Positions 3,222 through 25,446 of a stretch of DNA of 25,446 nucleotides are shown piece after piece. Where the stretch lies: positions 1 through 25,446 of the IMG/VR virus record IMGVR_UViG_3300034061_004700, one strand, 5' to 3'. The notes below the pieces were generated by a model. The model made no database searches, was not told the origin of the DNA, and saw only the letters and a program-made list of their open reading frames with translations. The stretch is from a virus. Position numbers and translations under genes: made by a program. Every line of letters starts with the position of its first letter. Position 1 is the first letter of the stretch.

Positions 3222-3848
3222 ATGAGCGCTTACGACCTAATTAACAAACAACTAAACGACGAAATGCAGAGCCTTGCCGAACTAATTAAGAGCGGCAATT
3301 ACACAGAGAAAGACAGAAATAGGTTAGCCTCAATCATGTATCCGAAATTAAAGTTCTTCATTTGGAAGTTCTTTAATGATCCTGACGAAACTGATGAAGT
3401 TCTCCATAATACTCTATTTAAGATATTCAAAGGACTTACCTCATACAGCGATTCGTATCGCTTCACGACCTGGATCTATACGATAGCTAAGAATGAGGCA
3501 CTACTTCACCAGCATAAATTAAAGGTTCAGTTCGCGCAGAGTCTTGATAATTTAACAAAACCTTTGAATCTACCGGACGATTCTCTACATACTTTCGAAA
3601 GGGAAATTTACATGGACGATCTCTATGTTATGACTCAGACCGAACTCACCGGCTTACCTGATTGCATTGAGAAATCAATACTAATTGATAAAGAGATGAA
3701 TCATCTAAGAGGTAATGAAATTGCAGAAAAGTACGACATGAATCTAAACACGGTTAAAACTAAAATTAGAAAGGCTCGTAAAATGTTAAGGGAAGCGGTG
3801 CTGGAAAAGAATCCAGGAATGATTGACCGACTAAATGAATACTTTTAA
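3222..3848 (+). CDS. ECF-type RNA polymerase sigma factor
   Basis: A 208-aa sigma-70-family protein with region 2 at about residues 35-105 (including DPDETDEVLHNTLFKIFKG, then FTTWIYTIAKNEAL) and region 4 at about 137-193 with a helix-turn-helix (GNEIAEKYDMNLNTVKTKIR). Regions 1.1 and 3 are absent, as in ECF sigmas. It would redirect host RNA polymerase to phage promoters. T4 gp55, the late sigma factor, is a shortened sigma relative, so this gene is a good candidate for the equivalent role. The RATAAATAA motifs ahead of several downstream genes are its obvious candidate targets, but that link is inference. It starts 10 nt after the PhoH stop. Confidence 0.9.
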   Translation: MSAYDLINKQLNDEMQSLAELIKSGNYTEKDRNRLASIMYPKLKFFIWKFFNDPDETDEVLHNTLFKIFKGLTSYSDSYRFTTWIYTIAKNEALLHQHKLKVQFAQSLDNLTKPLNLPDDSLHTFEREIYMDDLYVMTQTELTGLPDCIEKSILIDKEMNHLRGNEIAEKYDMNLNTVKTKIRKARKMLREAVLEKNPGMIDRLNEYF

Positions 3849-4385: not shown

Positions 4386-4685
4386 ATGAAATTGATTAAA
4401 CTTCATTTTGAAAAAATTGTATTGGGTTTACTATTCGTAATCTTCATTCAACAGTGCAGCACCTCAAGCCGAGTTAGCAAGATTGAAAAGCAGTCGAAAA
4501 TAATGAACCAGCGAATTGATTCAGTATACACGTCTGACTTAAAGAAAATGATTGAGATCGAAGGTTTAAAAGCCTCTAAGCGAACTCTTTATGACTGGAA
4601 TGCAGTGGTTAGAACCGCAGTTAGACCGGATGATCGTATGAATGAATACGATGCACAAATTGAAAAAATACAGAAGTCTAAATAA
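4386..4685 (+). CDS. Small N-terminally membrane-anchored protein with predicted coiled coil
   Basis: A 99-aa protein with a basic N-terminus, a hydrophobic segment at about 10-22 (KIVLGLLFVIFIQQC), then a charged helical region (SRVSKIEKQSKIMNQRIDSV) suggesting a short coiled coil. The cysteine at 24 after IQQ is not a proper lipobox because -1 is Gln rather than Gly/Ala/Ser, so I treat it as a signal anchor. Its stop overlaps the next ATG by one base (TAATG, 4683-4687), so the two are probably made together. A late-promoter-like motif lies 20 nt upstream. A small phage membrane protein of spanin or antiholin type is possible but unsupported. Confidence 0.75.
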   Translation: MKLIKLHFEKIVLGLLFVIFIQQCSTSSRVSKIEKQSKIMNQRIDSVYTSDLKKMIEIEGLKASKRTLYDWNAVVRTAVRPDDRMNEYDAQIEKIQKSK

Positions 4686-5476
4686 TGACAAAGAAAGCGA
4701 CTCACGTATTCATAATAACTACGTTTGTTACTCTATATTTACTTGTTTCGATCATTTCGACGATTCACGTTATTGACTTTTTCCTAATGTCGAATCCTAA
4801 ATGGTTAGCGATTAGCTTAGCTATTGCATTCGAAGTCGGAGCAGCCGCATCATTAGCCTCAATCATTACCCTAGATAAAATGAATAAGGGTATTGTTTGG
4901 GGACTTTTCATTTTATTAACCTTGATGCAGGCCATGGGTAACACATACTACACATACGTTCACTTAAACAATTTTCAAGGTTGGGTTGAACTATTTGGAT
5001 TAGTTGAAGAAGAACTAATTTATCAAAAAAGAGTTCTATCAATTGTAAGTGGAGCAATCTTACCGATAGTTGCACTAGGTTTCATTAAGTCATTGGTTGA
5101 TTACATTAAGCCAGCAAATGATACAGTAAATGATACAGCAAATGATACAGTAAATGATACAGTAAATGACACTGTAATTGATACAATATCAGATACAGAA
5201 ATTGAACCGGCTGAACCTGAGAAGGAAGTTCCTTACGTAAGCGATGACTTTCAAATAGGCCCAGACGGTGCTTATGAACATGATGACGAACTTGTTCTAG
5301 ATGCGCCATTCATGATTGAAGACGATCATTTTTCTGAAAGTCAACCGGCGATTGAACCTTCTCCAGAAATTACAACTGAACCTGAGGTAGATAATAATAA
5401 CACAATAAGCCAATCTCGATCGTCGGATGATGCAATAGCTAGAGGAGCTAGAATATCATTTAGTGATAAGATTTAA
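4685..5476 (+). CDS. Multi-pass membrane protein with acidic repeat-bearing tail
   Basis: A 263-aa protein with about four membrane helices in the first half (near residues 9-35, 41-63, 70-92 and 115-138). A cytoplasmic or periplasmic tail follows, rich in Asp, Glu and Thr. The tail opens with tandem tetrapeptides NDTV/NDTA (about 145-172) encoded by a 12-bp repeat, followed by an acidic, Pro-rich stretch. I do not recognise the family. It overlaps the upstream small anchored protein by 1 nt, suggesting the pair act together at the host membrane. The low-complexity tail may vary in length between related phages. Confidence 0.8.
   Translation: MTKKATHVFIITTFVTLYLLVSIISTIHVIDFFLMSNPKWLAISLAIAFEVGAAASLASIITLDKMNKGIVWGLFILLTLMQAMGNTYYTYVHLNNFQGWVELFGLVEEELIYQKRVLSIVSGAILPIVALGFIKSLVDYIKPANDTVNDTANDTVNDTVNDTVIDTISDTEIEPAEPEKEVPYVSDDFQIGPDGAYEHDDELVLDAPFMIEDDHFSESQPAIEPSPEITTEPEVDNNNTISQSRSSDDAIARGARISFSDKI
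5117..5200 (+). repeat. Coding 12-bp tandem repeat (NDTV units)
   Basis: Seven 12-bp units run in phase with the codons. The first five are near identical (AATGATACAGTA, with CA or C changes) and the last two are degenerate (ATTGATACAATA, TCAGATACAGAA). They encode NDTV, NDTA, NDTV, NDTV, NDTV, IDTI and SDTE. Whole-codon phasing means changes in copy number would keep the frame. The pattern of fresh 5' copies and decayed 3' copies suggests expansion by slippage. Confidence 0.9.
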
Positions 5477-12810: not shown

Positions 12811-14349
12811 ATGAACGGTCTCATACACGAACTAACAACTGAGCTCAAATCTAATTCGAGCATAAATTCTAGCATTGCCGCAAAGGTTGTGCTTGAATCA
12901 ATCAACAACTCACTTATGTTGGGAGTTGCACCTGATCAAATCTTAGAAAATTCTCTAGAAACCCTAGAACAATTTGCTATTGAGATGGTAAACGAAAACC
13001 TAAAGGAAGTAGTTGCGAAATTTAAGAAAATGGCTGAGAAGCCAACTGCAAGTCTTCAGAACATGGCAAAAGAAGCAGGTCTAAAGATTAAACTTCAAGC
13101 CGTTAAAGAATCTGAAACTTACGGAGATCCAATTTTCAAGCACACTGTTGCTAGATTGGAAGAAGCAGTTAATTCAATGCCAGAATACAGAGCGTTAGGT
13201 TTTGTGTACGAAGGACTTTCTAAGTTCGCTTACGATAAAATGGTTGCTGGAATTTTGGAAGAAATTTCAACTTACGTTAATAACAACCGTGTAAAATTAG
13301 AAGTACTGAACGCTGTTTTTGAAATGAGATTAGCCGGTCCAGTTCTTTACAAAGATGCTTGCGCTCTTCTTGAACAAGCAGTATTGGAAGGAATTGAAAC
13401 CTCTGACGGTATCAAAATGAAATTACGTTCTTTTGCTAATCTTCCAGTAGTTAGTAGACTTATTAATACTGTTAGCATGTTGGAAGCTAAGACAGACGGT
13501 ACTTTCAATTTAGGAATCGGAAATGGAGACGCTCAAGTAAAACCTATTGTTGCTCCTTTTTACAAAGTTACCGAAAGCGATGCACTAATTTTTATCGATA
13601 ATAAATTCATTAAAGTTTCAGAAAATACTGATCCAACTCAAGTAACAGTTGAGGACGCTCAAGAATTTCCAGAATTCTTTGAAATTTGCGAAGCTTTCAG
13701 ATTCTTAAACTTTAAAGAATCTGGTTCAGATATTGTTGCAAAATGTAGTAACCTATCAGTTGCATTCGGAATTAATGAGAACGGTACGCTAAACCTTAAG
13801 TTAAATGGTGCAGTTGTTGAAAATCTAGATAACGTTAGATTGACTGAGCTTTTAGTAATGGAGTCTCTTGATACACGCAGAGCCCTTACTAAAATCTTTG
13901 ATAACTTAGATCTTATCGTTAATATTGAATTCGGAAAAACTATCGTTAACGAACGTCTTGGAAGAAATTCAATCGTTTTAAATCTTGGTGAAAACATTTT
14001 CGTTTTTGAAAAATTAGGAGACACTCGTATTCTTAAGAAAATGAAGGACCTAACTTTCCACAATTACGTAATGGAAAACTTTAAGTATGACGTTAGTGAG
14101 CTCTATTCAATTCAACTAGAAGAAAGAGACGCTAAAATCAAGGAACTTAATTCAGAAAAATCAGTAATCGAGGCTAACTTAGAGAAATTGGAAAAAACAA
14201 TTTCACAAATCAATGAAGCTTTATCTGATGTAACAATTTCCGCTGATAATAAAGAGAAACTAAACGAACTTAGAATGTCAATTGAAAAGAACGTTAATGC
14301 TCTAAAGAATCAGTACATCTTAGTCGATCAGTCCAAAAAAAAAGCTTAA
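12811..14349 (+). CDS. 512-aa protein, probably highly expressed virion component, unknown
   Basis: The N-terminal half is helical and acidic (MNGLIHELTTELKSNSSINS, EQFAIEMVNENLKEVVAKFK). The middle, about 225-420, is mixed alpha/beta (PFYKVTESDALIFIDNKFIK and following). A coiled coil fills about 430-500 (ERDAKIKELNSEKSVIEANL). The C-terminus is KKKA, encoded by A9 then GCT TAA. I recognise no family. Three tandem late-promoter-like motifs precede it, and its codon choice looks more uniform than its neighbours', which suggests abundant expression. The -1 frame is open from 14298 through the next gene, so a longer product made by frameshifting at A9 is possible. Confidence 0.8.
   Translation: MNGLIHELTTELKSNSSINSSIAAKVVLESINNSLMLGVAPDQILENSLETLEQFAIEMVNENLKEVVAKFKKMAEKPTASLQNMAKEAGLKIKLQAVKESETYGDPIFKHTVARLEEAVNSMPEYRALGFVYEGLSKFAYDKMVAGILEEISTYVNNNRVKLEVLNAVFEMRLAGPVLYKDACALLEQAVLEGIETSDGIKMKLRSFANLPVVSRLINTVSMLEAKTDGTFNLGIGNGDAQVKPIVAPFYKVTESDALIFIDNKFIKVSENTDPTQVTVEDAQEFPEFFEICEAFRFLNFKESGSDIVAKCSNLSVAFGINENGTLNLKLNGAVVENLDNVRLTELLVMESLDTRRALTKIFDNLDLIVNIEFGKTIVNERLGRNSIVLNLGENIFVFEKLGDTRILKKMKDLTFHNYVMENFKYDVSELYSIQLEERDAKIKELNSEKSVIEANLEKLEKTISQINEALSDVTISADNKEKLNELRMSIEKNVNALKNQYILVDQSKKKA
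14335..14344 (+). other. Candidate -1 frameshift site (A9 then G)
   Basis: Nine A residues occupy three AAA codons just before GCT TAA. A -1 slip here enters a frame open to 14639 that has no ATG upstream of its domain. Runs of this kind (A AAA AAA/G) are strongly slippery in bacteria. An undercounted homopolymer in the assembly would look the same. Confidence 0.45.
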
Positions 14350-14372
14350 GTGAGTCCGAGGACATTACTTTA

Positions 14373-14639
14373 GTGTCCCCAACCGCAGCTAAATACGCAA
14401 CTGGCCAACGTGTCATGTTGAAGTCTGGGCAATCTGCAACAATCGTTGGAATTGATTCGGTCGGTAAAACCTATAAGGTTATGGGCTCTGATAATAAGTA
14501 CAAGTCAGTTAAGCCTGAAGAAATCGAAAAGGTCGAGTCTTCTAAGTACAAGGACTATCAACAATCTGGCCCAAATCCACAAAATCCAGAAGAGCTTTCA
14601 ATTAAAGAAAAGGACGTTACTCTAGACCAAAGCGCATAA
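14373..14639 (+). CDS. Small SH3-like protein, GTG start, or frameshift extension of the 512-aa protein
   Basis: From GTG 14373 this gives 88 aa. Residues about 9-50 (YATGQRVMLKSGQSATIVGI, then KTYKVMGSDNKYKSVKP) have the strand pattern of a small SH3-like barrel, followed by a polar, Pro/Gln-rich tail. No ATG precedes the domain; the first is 14415, inside it. The same frame is open upstream to 14298, reading KKSLSESEDITL from the A9 run across the stop of the preceding gene. The SH3-like part may therefore be a separate GTG-started gene or a -1 extension of the 512-aa protein. Confidence 0.7.
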   Translation: MSPTAAKYATGQRVMLKSGQSATIVGIDSVGKTYKVMGSDNKYKSVKPEEIEKVESSKYKDYQQSGPNPQNPEELSIKEKDVTLDQSA

Positions 14640-14673: not shown

Positions 14674-15489
14674 ATGGCTGACGTACTATGCTCAATCGAA
14701 GAGGCTCGCAATAGTGGAACCCTTCAGGTTTTTGAAAAGAAGACTAAATATCACGATTATCAATTTCTAGTTAGATCTGAGGAAGAGATAAAATTCAATG
14801 TTTCTCAAAATATCTCTACGAAACCTACTGGTGGAGAGTATTTTAAACCCCTATTCATACCGCACTATGCACAAAACCCAGGAGGTCCATTGACCCTTGA
14901 GGATTTGAATGAAGAGGATGTGTGGTTGGATGCAGGCGGCCATATTGGCATATTTGCAACCAGACTACTTACTCAATTTCCAAGAATTCAAAAAGTTTAT
15001 TCTTACGAGCCGTTTCATAATAACGTTGAGTTTGCTCAACAAAATATCGAAATGAATCATGTACAAGATCGCTGTGAAATAATTGAAAAGGCTATTGTTG
15101 CAGATGAGTCCGAATCAGTAGAATTCTTTTTATCACAGGACTCAGGTAAACACAGTGTTCACCCAATTAGAGGTCGTCAGGTCACAACCGTTCCTGCTGA
15201 AAATATTAACACAATCATCAAGGAAAAGGGCATCACCTGTATCAAGATGGATATTGAAGGCCTTGAATACGATATGATTAAGGCAATCAATCAAGAAAGC
15301 TTTGATCAATTGAAATTATTCATTGTTGAATATCATTTTCATTACAGTTGGTTACTTGAAAACCGCGCCTCTAAATTCAATGAGATCATGGAAATTTTCG
15401 GAAATAACTTTGACCGAATTTTCGTTAACCCAAGAACAGCAAACGGTAAGCATTTCATTACTCACTTTGCTGGATTCAAAAAGATTTAA
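14674..15489 (+). CDS. FkbM-family SAM-dependent methyltransferase
   Basis: A 271-aa class I methyltransferase of the FkbM type. Motif I is WLDAGGHIGIF (84-94), the SAM-ribose acidic region is YSYEPFHNN (109-117), and the hallmark KMDIEGLEYDM lies at 191-201, followed by LFIVEYH. FkbM-type enzymes usually O-methylate sugars or small molecules. The N-terminal 80 residues may form a substrate-recognition cap. It is preceded by the TTTAGTATAATA motif and overlaps the glycosylase gene by one base. With the glycosyltransferase-like gene two positions downstream it could methylate a glycan or a modified base; the substrate cannot be read from sequence. Confidence 0.87.
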   Translation: MADVLCSIEEARNSGTLQVFEKKTKYHDYQFLVRSEEEIKFNVSQNISTKPTGGEYFKPLFIPHYAQNPGGPLTLEDLNEEDVWLDAGGHIGIFATRLLTQFPRIQKVYSYEPFHNNVEFAQQNIEMNHVQDRCEIIEKAIVADESESVEFFLSQDSGKHSVHPIRGRQVTTVPAENINTIIKEKGITCIKMDIEGLEYDMIKAINQESFDQLKLFIVEYHFHYSWLLENRASKFNEIMEIFGNNFDRIFVNPRTANGKHFITHFAGFKKI

Positions 15490-15914
15490 TGAGCCCTTAC
15501 GAGTTATTGCAGGAAATTTATCACGACAGTCCTTGGAAATCCCAAGTATGTTGTATTCTGCTTAACTGTACCAGAAGAGTTCAAGTCGATAGAGTTCGTG
15601 ATGAGCTCTTTCGTCGTTATCCGGATGCGGTTGAAATGTCAGTCGCTGATCCCGAAGAACTTTCTCTATTACTTAAACCCCTAGGCTTCTATAACAGACG
15701 CGCAAGGACCCTAATAAAATTCAGCTTTGACTGGGTTGATAAAGATTGGAAACATCCCAAGGAACTGTACGGTATAGGACAATATGCGGCAGATTCTTGG
15801 GATATTTTTTATGAAAACCGATTAGACTTAGAACCCAATGATGGAGTTCTAGTAAAATACTTAGAATGGAAAAGAAATCAAGTAAATCACTCTATGCCTA
15901 TTTTGGCGAATTAG
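15489..15914 (+). CDS. MBD4-like HhH-GPD DNA glycosylase
   Basis: A 141-aa protein that closely follows the glycosylase domain of eukaryotic MBD4 from residue 13: SPWKSQVCCILLNCTRR (MBD4: PWKLLIATIFLNRTSG), LLKPLGFYNRRARTLIKFS, then the helix-hairpin-helix ELYGIGQYAADSW (92-104). The catalytic Asp is expected at D102. MBD4 removes T or U opposite G after deamination of 5-methylcytosine or cytosine. No iron-sulfur Cys cluster follows, unlike endonuclease III. The ATG shares a base with the methyltransferase stop, and the C-terminus overlaps the next gene by 49 nt. A role in mismatch or uracil repair of phage DNA, or attack on host DNA, is inferred. Confidence 0.85.
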   Translation: MSPYELLQEIYHDSPWKSQVCCILLNCTRRVQVDRVRDELFRRYPDAVEMSVADPEELSLLLKPLGFYNRRARTLIKFSFDWVDKDWKHPKELYGIGQYAADSWDIFYENRLDLEPNDGVLVKYLEWKRNQVNHSMPILAN

Positions 15915-21120: not shown

Positions 21121-21309
21121 ATGCTAATAATAAACGTAAAAGATCACGGATCTTTAGACAGAGCTCTTAAGACCCTAAAAAGAAAATTCGAACAGGTCGG
21201 AACAGTTAGAGAACTTCGCTCGCGTAAGGAGTTCACAAAACCTAGTGTGAAGCGTCGAGCTGAAGTACTTGATGCTAAGTACCGACAAACATTTGTCAAG
21301 AATGATTAA
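21121..21309 (+). CDS. rpsU: Ribosomal protein bS21, phage-encoded
   Basis: A 62-aa basic protein that fits bS21 end to end: IINVKDHGSLDRALKTLKRK, then FEQVGTVRELRSRKEF and KPSVKRR. It looks closest to the short Bacteroidota form (KxFKRKFEKxGxVKELRSRxxFxKPS). bS21 sits on the 30S platform near the 3' end of 16S rRNA; in Flavobacterium ribosomes it helps hide the anti-Shine-Dalgarno sequence. Phage bS21 genes are known from large phage genomes and are thought to join or replace host bS21. The gene starts one base after the previous stop, has no strong SD, and its end overlaps the Nudix gene by 8 nt. Confidence 0.93.
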   Translation: MLIINVKDHGSLDRALKTLKRKFEQVGTVRELRSRKEFTKPSVKRRAEVLDAKYRQTFVKND

Positions 21310-24752: not shown

Positions 24753-25446
24753 ATGACAAAATCTATTAAACTGACAATTGCTATTGTAATCATGGCTATC
24801 TTAGCAGCCGCTTACGTATGGCACTCAAATTCAACTCACCGTTACGTGAGACATGAAGTTCACTCGCCTGAGGCAAAACGCGATCTTGAAGCTCTTGACA
24901 AAGCTCTAAAAATCATGAGAGCAAAGGACTGTTCAGATCCATTGAGCTGGTATTATCAAGGGGCAATTCACTGGATTCCAGATACAATTGCTGACAATAA
25001 ATTGTGCGATTCATATCATACTGTTGCTGACATAAAAGAGGCATGGGATAATTGCACTCACTCACCGAGCGGCAAGGAAAAATTGCATTTCCTAGTTTGG
25101 CACAGACTGTACATTTGGCACTTTGAGAAAATCGTTCGTAAACTATCAGGTTACAATGAGTTCACATTACCTTACTGGGATTATTCTGGACCCAACTCAA
25201 ATAATAAAGTTCTACAAGAAGTATTCAGAACCCCAGGTAGCGGAGTCTATGAAGCTTGCAGATATGATGCCCTAAATGCAGGACAGCCGATTAGCGGAGA
25301 AATCGAAAGAGCTCTTGACCTAACCAACTTAATGAAAAAGACCGACTACCGAGCATTCTGTTATCAAATCAATGCAGCTCCACATGGTGCAATGCACGAC
25401 TACATTGGAGCAGGTAATGATACTACTGGAAATCTAAAGTTCAATA
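24753..25446 (+). CDS. Tyrosinase-family type-3 copper enzyme, N-terminal part (cut at window edge)
   Basis: Open from ATG 24753 to the window end (231 residues), so the gene is incomplete here. A hydrophobic segment at 7-22 (LTIAIVIMAILAAAYV) is a signal peptide or membrane anchor. The tyrosinase core follows. CuA ligand candidates are H73 (WYYQGAIHW), H103 (NCTHS) or H112, and H117 in FLVWHRLYIWHFEKI. FTLPYWDYSG (137-146) is the classic LPYWD block. CuB begins PHGAMHDYIG with H211 and H215; the third CuB His should lie downstream. Cys 60, 85, 101, 169 and 203 may form disulfides. Tyrosinases hydroxylate monophenols and oxidise diphenols to quinones using O2. It starts 21 nt after the SSB-like gene. 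Location suggests export to the envelope or periplasm. Confidence 0.9.
   Translation, partial: MTKSIKLTIAIVIMAILAAAYVWHSNSTHRYVRHEVHSPEAKRDLEALDKALKIMRAKDCSDPLSWYYQGAIHWIPDTIADNKLCDSYHTVADIKEAWDNCTHSPSGKEKLHFLVWHRLYIWHFEKIVRKLSGYNEFTLPYWDYSGPNSNNKVLQEVFRTPGSGVYEACRYDALNAGQPISGEIERALDLTNLMKKTDYRAFCYQINAAPHGAMHDYIGAGNDTTGNLKFN

Follow-up and report, generated by a model that had tools for sequence, protein, structure and literature searches.

A conserved slippery run that probably directs programmed -1 ribosomal frameshifting and adds an SH3-like domain to a predicted coiled-coil protein of a T4-like phage

The stretch of DNA analysed here, referred to as the window, comprises 25,446 nucleotides of the IMG/VR virus record IMGVR_UViG_3300034061_004700. 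On the plus strand it contains an open reading frame for a protein of 512 amino acids with no predicted function (12811 to 14349), the 3' end of which reads AAA AAA AAA GCT TAA in the 0 frame. The run of 9 adenines (A9; 14335 to 14343) is in phase with this frame, where it makes up codons 509 to 511 and ends in the heptamer A_AAA_AAA (14337 to 14343), and it is followed by a GCT codon (14344 to 14346) and the TAA stop codon (14347 to 14349). The last preceding stop codon in the -1 frame is located at 14295 to 14297, and this frame is open from 14298 to a TAA at 14637 to 14639, reading KKSLSESEDITLVSPTAAKY... across the 0-frame stop. After a slip, the protein sequence would continue as SLSESEDITLVSP... 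over 98 residues and a stop codon (14343 to 14639), giving a fusion of 511 + 98 = 609 amino acids. The only canonical start codon upstream of the domain encoded in this tail is a GTG at 14373, and there is no ATG. The run, the stop, the open frame and the lack of an ATG had all been described in the initial annotation, with which the sequence agrees.

Several genes in the window overlap the next gene in the -1 frame, but those next genes begin with ATG. Because many genes overlap the ATG of the next gene in this manner, the -1 frame often stays open beyond the end of a gene in the window, and this is by itself not unusual. The locus stands out in that it combines an in-phase A9 run with an immediate stop codon and no start codon, above all because this arrangement is conserved, and also because A9 runs are rare in coding sequences. 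Directly past the tail are genes for an FkbM-type methyltransferase and then a HhH-GPD DNA repair protein (14674 to 15914), the latter of which is absent from some relatives.

The AlphaFold2 model of the 512-aa protein (mean pLDDT 77.5, pTM 0.42) contains a helical N-terminus, a β-rich middle part at residues ~241 to 411 and a C-terminal coiled coil at ~429 to 511. Searches against the PDB by sequence and by fold returned nothing usable, and searches against Pfam and PHROGs gave weak coiled-coil matches only, with no known capsid or tail family. Its fold relatives were all uncharacterised phage proteins, one of them from Tenacibaculum phage PTm1. Profiles A1 and A5 identified no member of the family in either PTm1 or Flavobacterium phage MaF61, and the protein matched by fold could therefore not be placed in the PTm1 genome. 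We refer to the base protein as a predicted coiled-coil protein.

For the tail, AlphaFold2 predicted a 5-stranded barrel at about residues 20 to 65 (14400 to 14537), with pLDDT values of ~88 to 90 for residues 21 to 60. Foldseek matched the barrel to Tudor and KOW domains with a probability of 1.00, a target TM-score of up to 0.79 and a best E-value of 1.4e-3, and the predicted fold is of the SH3/Tudor-like and not of the Ig-like type. The remainder of the tail was partly conserved and modelled with low confidence. The SH3-like domain proposed in the initial annotation is strongly supported by these predictions.

The window encodes a T4-type terminase, and a 271-kb relative, G005, contains genes for a T4-type capsid protein (gp23) and portal located far from the frameshift locus; on this gene content the phage is classified as T4-like. 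The tail sheath family PF04984 was searched for but not found. The gene for the 512-aa protein is positioned between the genes for terminase/PhoH and ribosomal protein bS21, and in Flavobacterium phage MaF61 the family to which its 700-aa upstream neighbour belongs is found among genes putatively assigned to the baseplate. There is thus a hint of a tail or baseplate neighbourhood, which does not assign the 512-aa protein itself.

The host is probably a freshwater member of the Bacteroidetes. This assignment is based on a Bacteroidetes MAG that contained one of the relatives and on similar freshwater phages with a bS21 gene, for which Bacteroidetes hosts have been predicted (PMC9723584). The bS21 gene of the window (21121 to 21309; PF01165, E-value 1.1e-14) lies ~6.8 kb past the frameshift gene; G009, G010 and G012 likewise encode bS21 close to the locus, whereas G005 does not. 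In Bacteroidia, bS21 helps to hide the anti-Shine-Dalgarno sequence (PMC9976891). Other genes in the window code for a sigma-70-like factor (3222 to 3848; PF04542, E-value 9.8e-8) and for a protein that contains hydrophobic segments as well as a tandem repeat of the NDTVNDTANDTV type (4685 to 5476). A gene for a protein with a tyrosinase common central domain (24753 to 25445; PF00264, E-value 2.3e-15), preceded by a predicted N-terminal membrane segment, runs off the end of the window and represents unusual phage cargo.

A scan of viral contigs identified 31 relatives of the 512-aa protein, and further scans added more. The slippery site, a stop after one further codon and an open -1 frame were all retained in 23 distinct relatives, with 49% to 96% sequence identity, on contigs from many metagenomes, one of which (L072) derives from the Bacteroidetes MAG. 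In all close relatives, the protein was 512 amino acids long and ended with AAA AAA AAR and a stop one codon on, while the -1 frame passed through the stop into a tail of 78 to 102 codons, that of L013 being cut off by the end of the contig. L026, L027, L029 and L111 contained AAA AAA AAG GCC TAA, which preserves a slippery heptamer as A_AAA_AAG, and in L001 and L100 the TAA was replaced by TGA so that the 0-frame stop is still present. The more distant L112, only 26% identical to the protein in the window, contained CTT AAA AAA AAA GTA GGT TAA, with the A9 run in the same phase and the barrel encoded in the -1 frame. Thus, the run was in codon phase in every lineage, and all frameshift-type relatives as well as L112 contained an in-phase heptamer of the X_XXY_YYZ type, either A_AAA_AAA or A_AAA_AAG. 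The run (A9, or A8 followed by G in one subclade) also falls within the length range of ~8 to 9 or more associated with transcriptional slippage. The comparison of run length and frame in related phages that had been suggested at the outset thus gave conservation of both in the 23 relatives and L112, and the conserved run, stop and open frame strongly support the original proposal of -1 recoding.

The codons were compared in 24 distinct sequences, including the window. Only 4 of the 104 invariant amino acid columns for which synonymous codons exist were also invariant at the codon level, and 2 of these 4 were the first 2 slippery lysines (AAA AAA). Both AAA and AAG were used in the remaining 9 invariant lysine columns, among them the third slippery lysine. 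The dN/dS values of the tail, where computable, ranged from 0.045 to 0.22, and substitutions in the -1 frame were distributed as 257, 134 and 544 over the first, second and third codon positions. Judging from these patterns, the tail evolves as a protein in the -1 frame and represents a genuine overlapping reading frame. In G005, A or T runs of at least 8 nucleotides were depleted, with 17 observed compared to ~96 expected under a first-order model. Of the 5 runs of at least 9 nucleotides, only the slippery run was located inside a coding sequence, the other 4 being called intergenic from their context. Such runs were likewise few in 6 other records, with the exception of the MAG.

The barrel was found in 3 arrangements. 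In L144 (760 amino acids, E-value 1e-12 for the barrel domain) and L122 (949 amino acids, E-value 2.5e-11), it was fused in frame to the 512-like protein, which indicates that the fusion is a natural state of the protein. The frameshift arrangement was found in the clade of the window and in L112. A separate barrel gene was present in L116, L118, L119, L121, L133 and L115, with a TTG or ATG start that overlapped or was located just past a small lipoprotein-like gene. In L116, L118, L119, L121 and L133, this small gene is situated between the 512-like gene and the barrel gene, and in most of them it overlaps the stop codon of the 512-like gene. The separate-gene clade also included L113, for which the sequence was cut off, and L114, which had no recognisable barrel. 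The initial annotation had reasoned that a separate SH3-like gene with a start of its own in related genomes would speak against frameshifting; such a gene does exist, but only in the sister clade of L112, which contains neither the slippery run nor the overlap. Elsewhere in the family, the Lak megaphage proteins had long acidic C-terminal extensions in frame, while those of LR756502, LR756504 and LR745206 were shorter (428 to 441 amino acids) and ended after the coiled coil without a barrel.

In the tree, L112 was placed as the sister of the separate-gene clade (100/100 support), and the frameshift label required 2 changes. On this basis, we tentatively suggest, as the simplest reading, that the frameshift predates the split between L112 and the separate-gene clade, in a tree with an unfixed root and long deep branches. 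At about even confidence, we propose that the same SH3-like domain has switched between 3 modes of delivery, namely as a permanent fusion, as a fusion metered by frameshifting and from a gene of its own. In this scenario, the frameshift state would be old, since it flanks the separate-gene state in the tree, and the separate gene would probably be derived from it. The shift would operate with neither a Shine-Dalgarno stimulator nor any conserved RNA structure, in a group of hosts whose ribosomes do not use Shine-Dalgarno pairing.

A downstream RNA structure is usual but not obligatory at -1 frameshift sites. A stem-loop or pseudoknot past 14349 had been suggested, but none was conserved: the local consensus fold of 21 sequences contained no pairs, and an Rfam search at the site gave no matches. 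A possible 8-bp hairpin 16 nucleotides past the run (GGACAUUA-CUU-UAGUGUCC; 14360 to 14378) was restricted to a subclade and showed no covariation. Many bacterial -1 sites also have a Shine-Dalgarno-like stimulator upstream, as is usual in the E. coli examples. No AGGA, GGAG or GAGG was found within 30 nucleotides upstream of the run in 15 of 16 sequences. Shine-Dalgarno sequences are not recognised by Bacteroidia ribosomes (PMC9976891). G005 contained a single tRNA-Lys gene, with anticodon UUU, among ~26 tRNA genes, and also a tmRNA gene (L164:14686-15052 and L156/L157).

Taken together, the comparative data indicate that programmed recoding almost certainly appends the SH3-like domain. The initial annotation had raised the alternative that a true A10 run was read as A9, in which case the locus would be one single-frame gene, or else a broken gene. 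Homopolymers are prone to such errors, and, as is seen from L144 and L122, a fusion in a single frame is viable. However, an error is excluded by the 23 distinct relatives, with the same run length, stop and frame, because their contigs come from many metagenomes and a Bacteroidetes MAG; L001 and L100 retain the stop as TGA, purifying selection acts on the tail, and the chance of an error is negligible. It is also very improbable that the barrel is made as a separate small protein from GTG 14373 or another internal codon, for which the presence of this GTG in the window and the separate barrel genes of L116, L118, L119, L121 and L133, which begin at a TTG or ATG that overlaps the stop codon of the preceding gene, could be taken as precedents. 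We rejected GTG 14373 as a start since it is not conserved, being GTT or GTC in relatives, and there is no start codon common to all tails. The first canonical start in the tail is at codon 46 in L019 and L024 and at codon 69 in L026, whereas the tail of L111 contains no ATG, GTG or TTG at all. Furthermore, the conserved tail starts ahead of any start codon, and independent initiation leaves the conserved slippery codons unexplained.

A somewhat unlikely but more serious alternative is transcriptional slippage, whereby RNA polymerase adds one A, or drops 2, on the A8 to A9 run and ordinary translation then yields the 609-aa fusion. Tandem slippage by the ribosome and slippage by the polymerase would yield the same protein. 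An A9 run alone may suffice for the polymerase, no ribosomal stimulator was found, and long A runs are avoided elsewhere in the coding sequences of G005. Bacterial genes that make use of transcriptional slippage at runs of this kind include Thermus dnaX (PMC5009743) and Citrobacter tssM (PMC4256274). On the other hand, in one lineage the run comprises only 8 adenines before a G (A_AAA_AAG), and slippage by the polymerase has no need of the codon phase, which has nevertheless been kept in every lineage including L112, although both points are only suggestive. Slippage by the ribosome is the reading that we favour, for which the UUU anticodon of the single tRNA-Lys of G005 also speaks.

We consider it probable that this gene of a large T4-like phage, whose host probably belongs to the Bacteroidetes, contains a programmed -1 ribosomal frameshift site. 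Most ribosomes would end the 512-aa protein at the stop codon just past the A run. The others would undergo a tandem slip of one nucleotide backwards on A_AAA_AAA, or on A_AAA_AAG in one subclade, so that the 98-aa tail with the SH3/Tudor-like barrel would be added and the 609-aa form would result. The purpose may be to let a restricted number of subunits with a barrel enter a coiled-coil assembly of this protein. The series of fused, frameshifted and separate arrangements suggests that the coiled-coil protein and the barrel function together and that the amount of barrel is important. The site provides a well-conserved case of recoding in a phage protein family without known function, at a locus where ordinary annotation would give the 512-aa gene and either overlook the small second ORF or assign it a wrong start, and it is a good natural test of -1 shifting in Bacteroidetes, in which ribosomes ignore Shine-Dalgarno signals.

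Domains appended by frameshifting are known from other phages, but in the family of the 512-aa protein this appears to be new; no prior report was found in the literature searched, which mostly consisted of sources other than subscription journals. Members of the same family in the Lak megaphages (MK250015-29) and the huge phages LR756500, LR756502, LR756504 and LR745206 are each encoded in a single frame; the Lak proteins have long C-terminal extensions, and those of LR756502, LR756504 and LR745206 have no barrel. C-terminal domains are added to capsid or tail proteins by frameshifting in T7, T3, Lactobacillus phage A2 and Listeria phages PSA, A118 and A500 (PMC5009743). As in those systems, a short and a long form would be produced from one phage gene by a shift near the 3' end, with an extra C-terminal domain in the long form. 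There, however, the extension is Ig-like (of another type in T7) and is attached to coat or tail proteins, whereas here it is a predicted SH3/Tudor-like barrel on a coiled-coil protein. The gene for the tail assembly chaperone G/GT of lambda likewise contains a programmed -1 shift close to its end, and chaperones of this type act on the tape measure protein (PMC5009743). Unlike G/GT, the 512-aa protein had no homology to tail assembly chaperones in Pfam or PHROGs. No tape measure gene could be identified in the window. The same kind of A-rich slip site is found in dnaX, where E. coli uses a ribosomal -1 shift on A_AAA_AAG and Thermus thermophilus uses transcriptional slippage, and the L026/L111 subclade carries the dnaX heptamer A_AAA_AAG itself. 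In E. coli dnaX, the shift is aided by stimulatory signals and gives a shorter product, whereas no conserved stimulator was found at the site described here and the shift would give a longer product.
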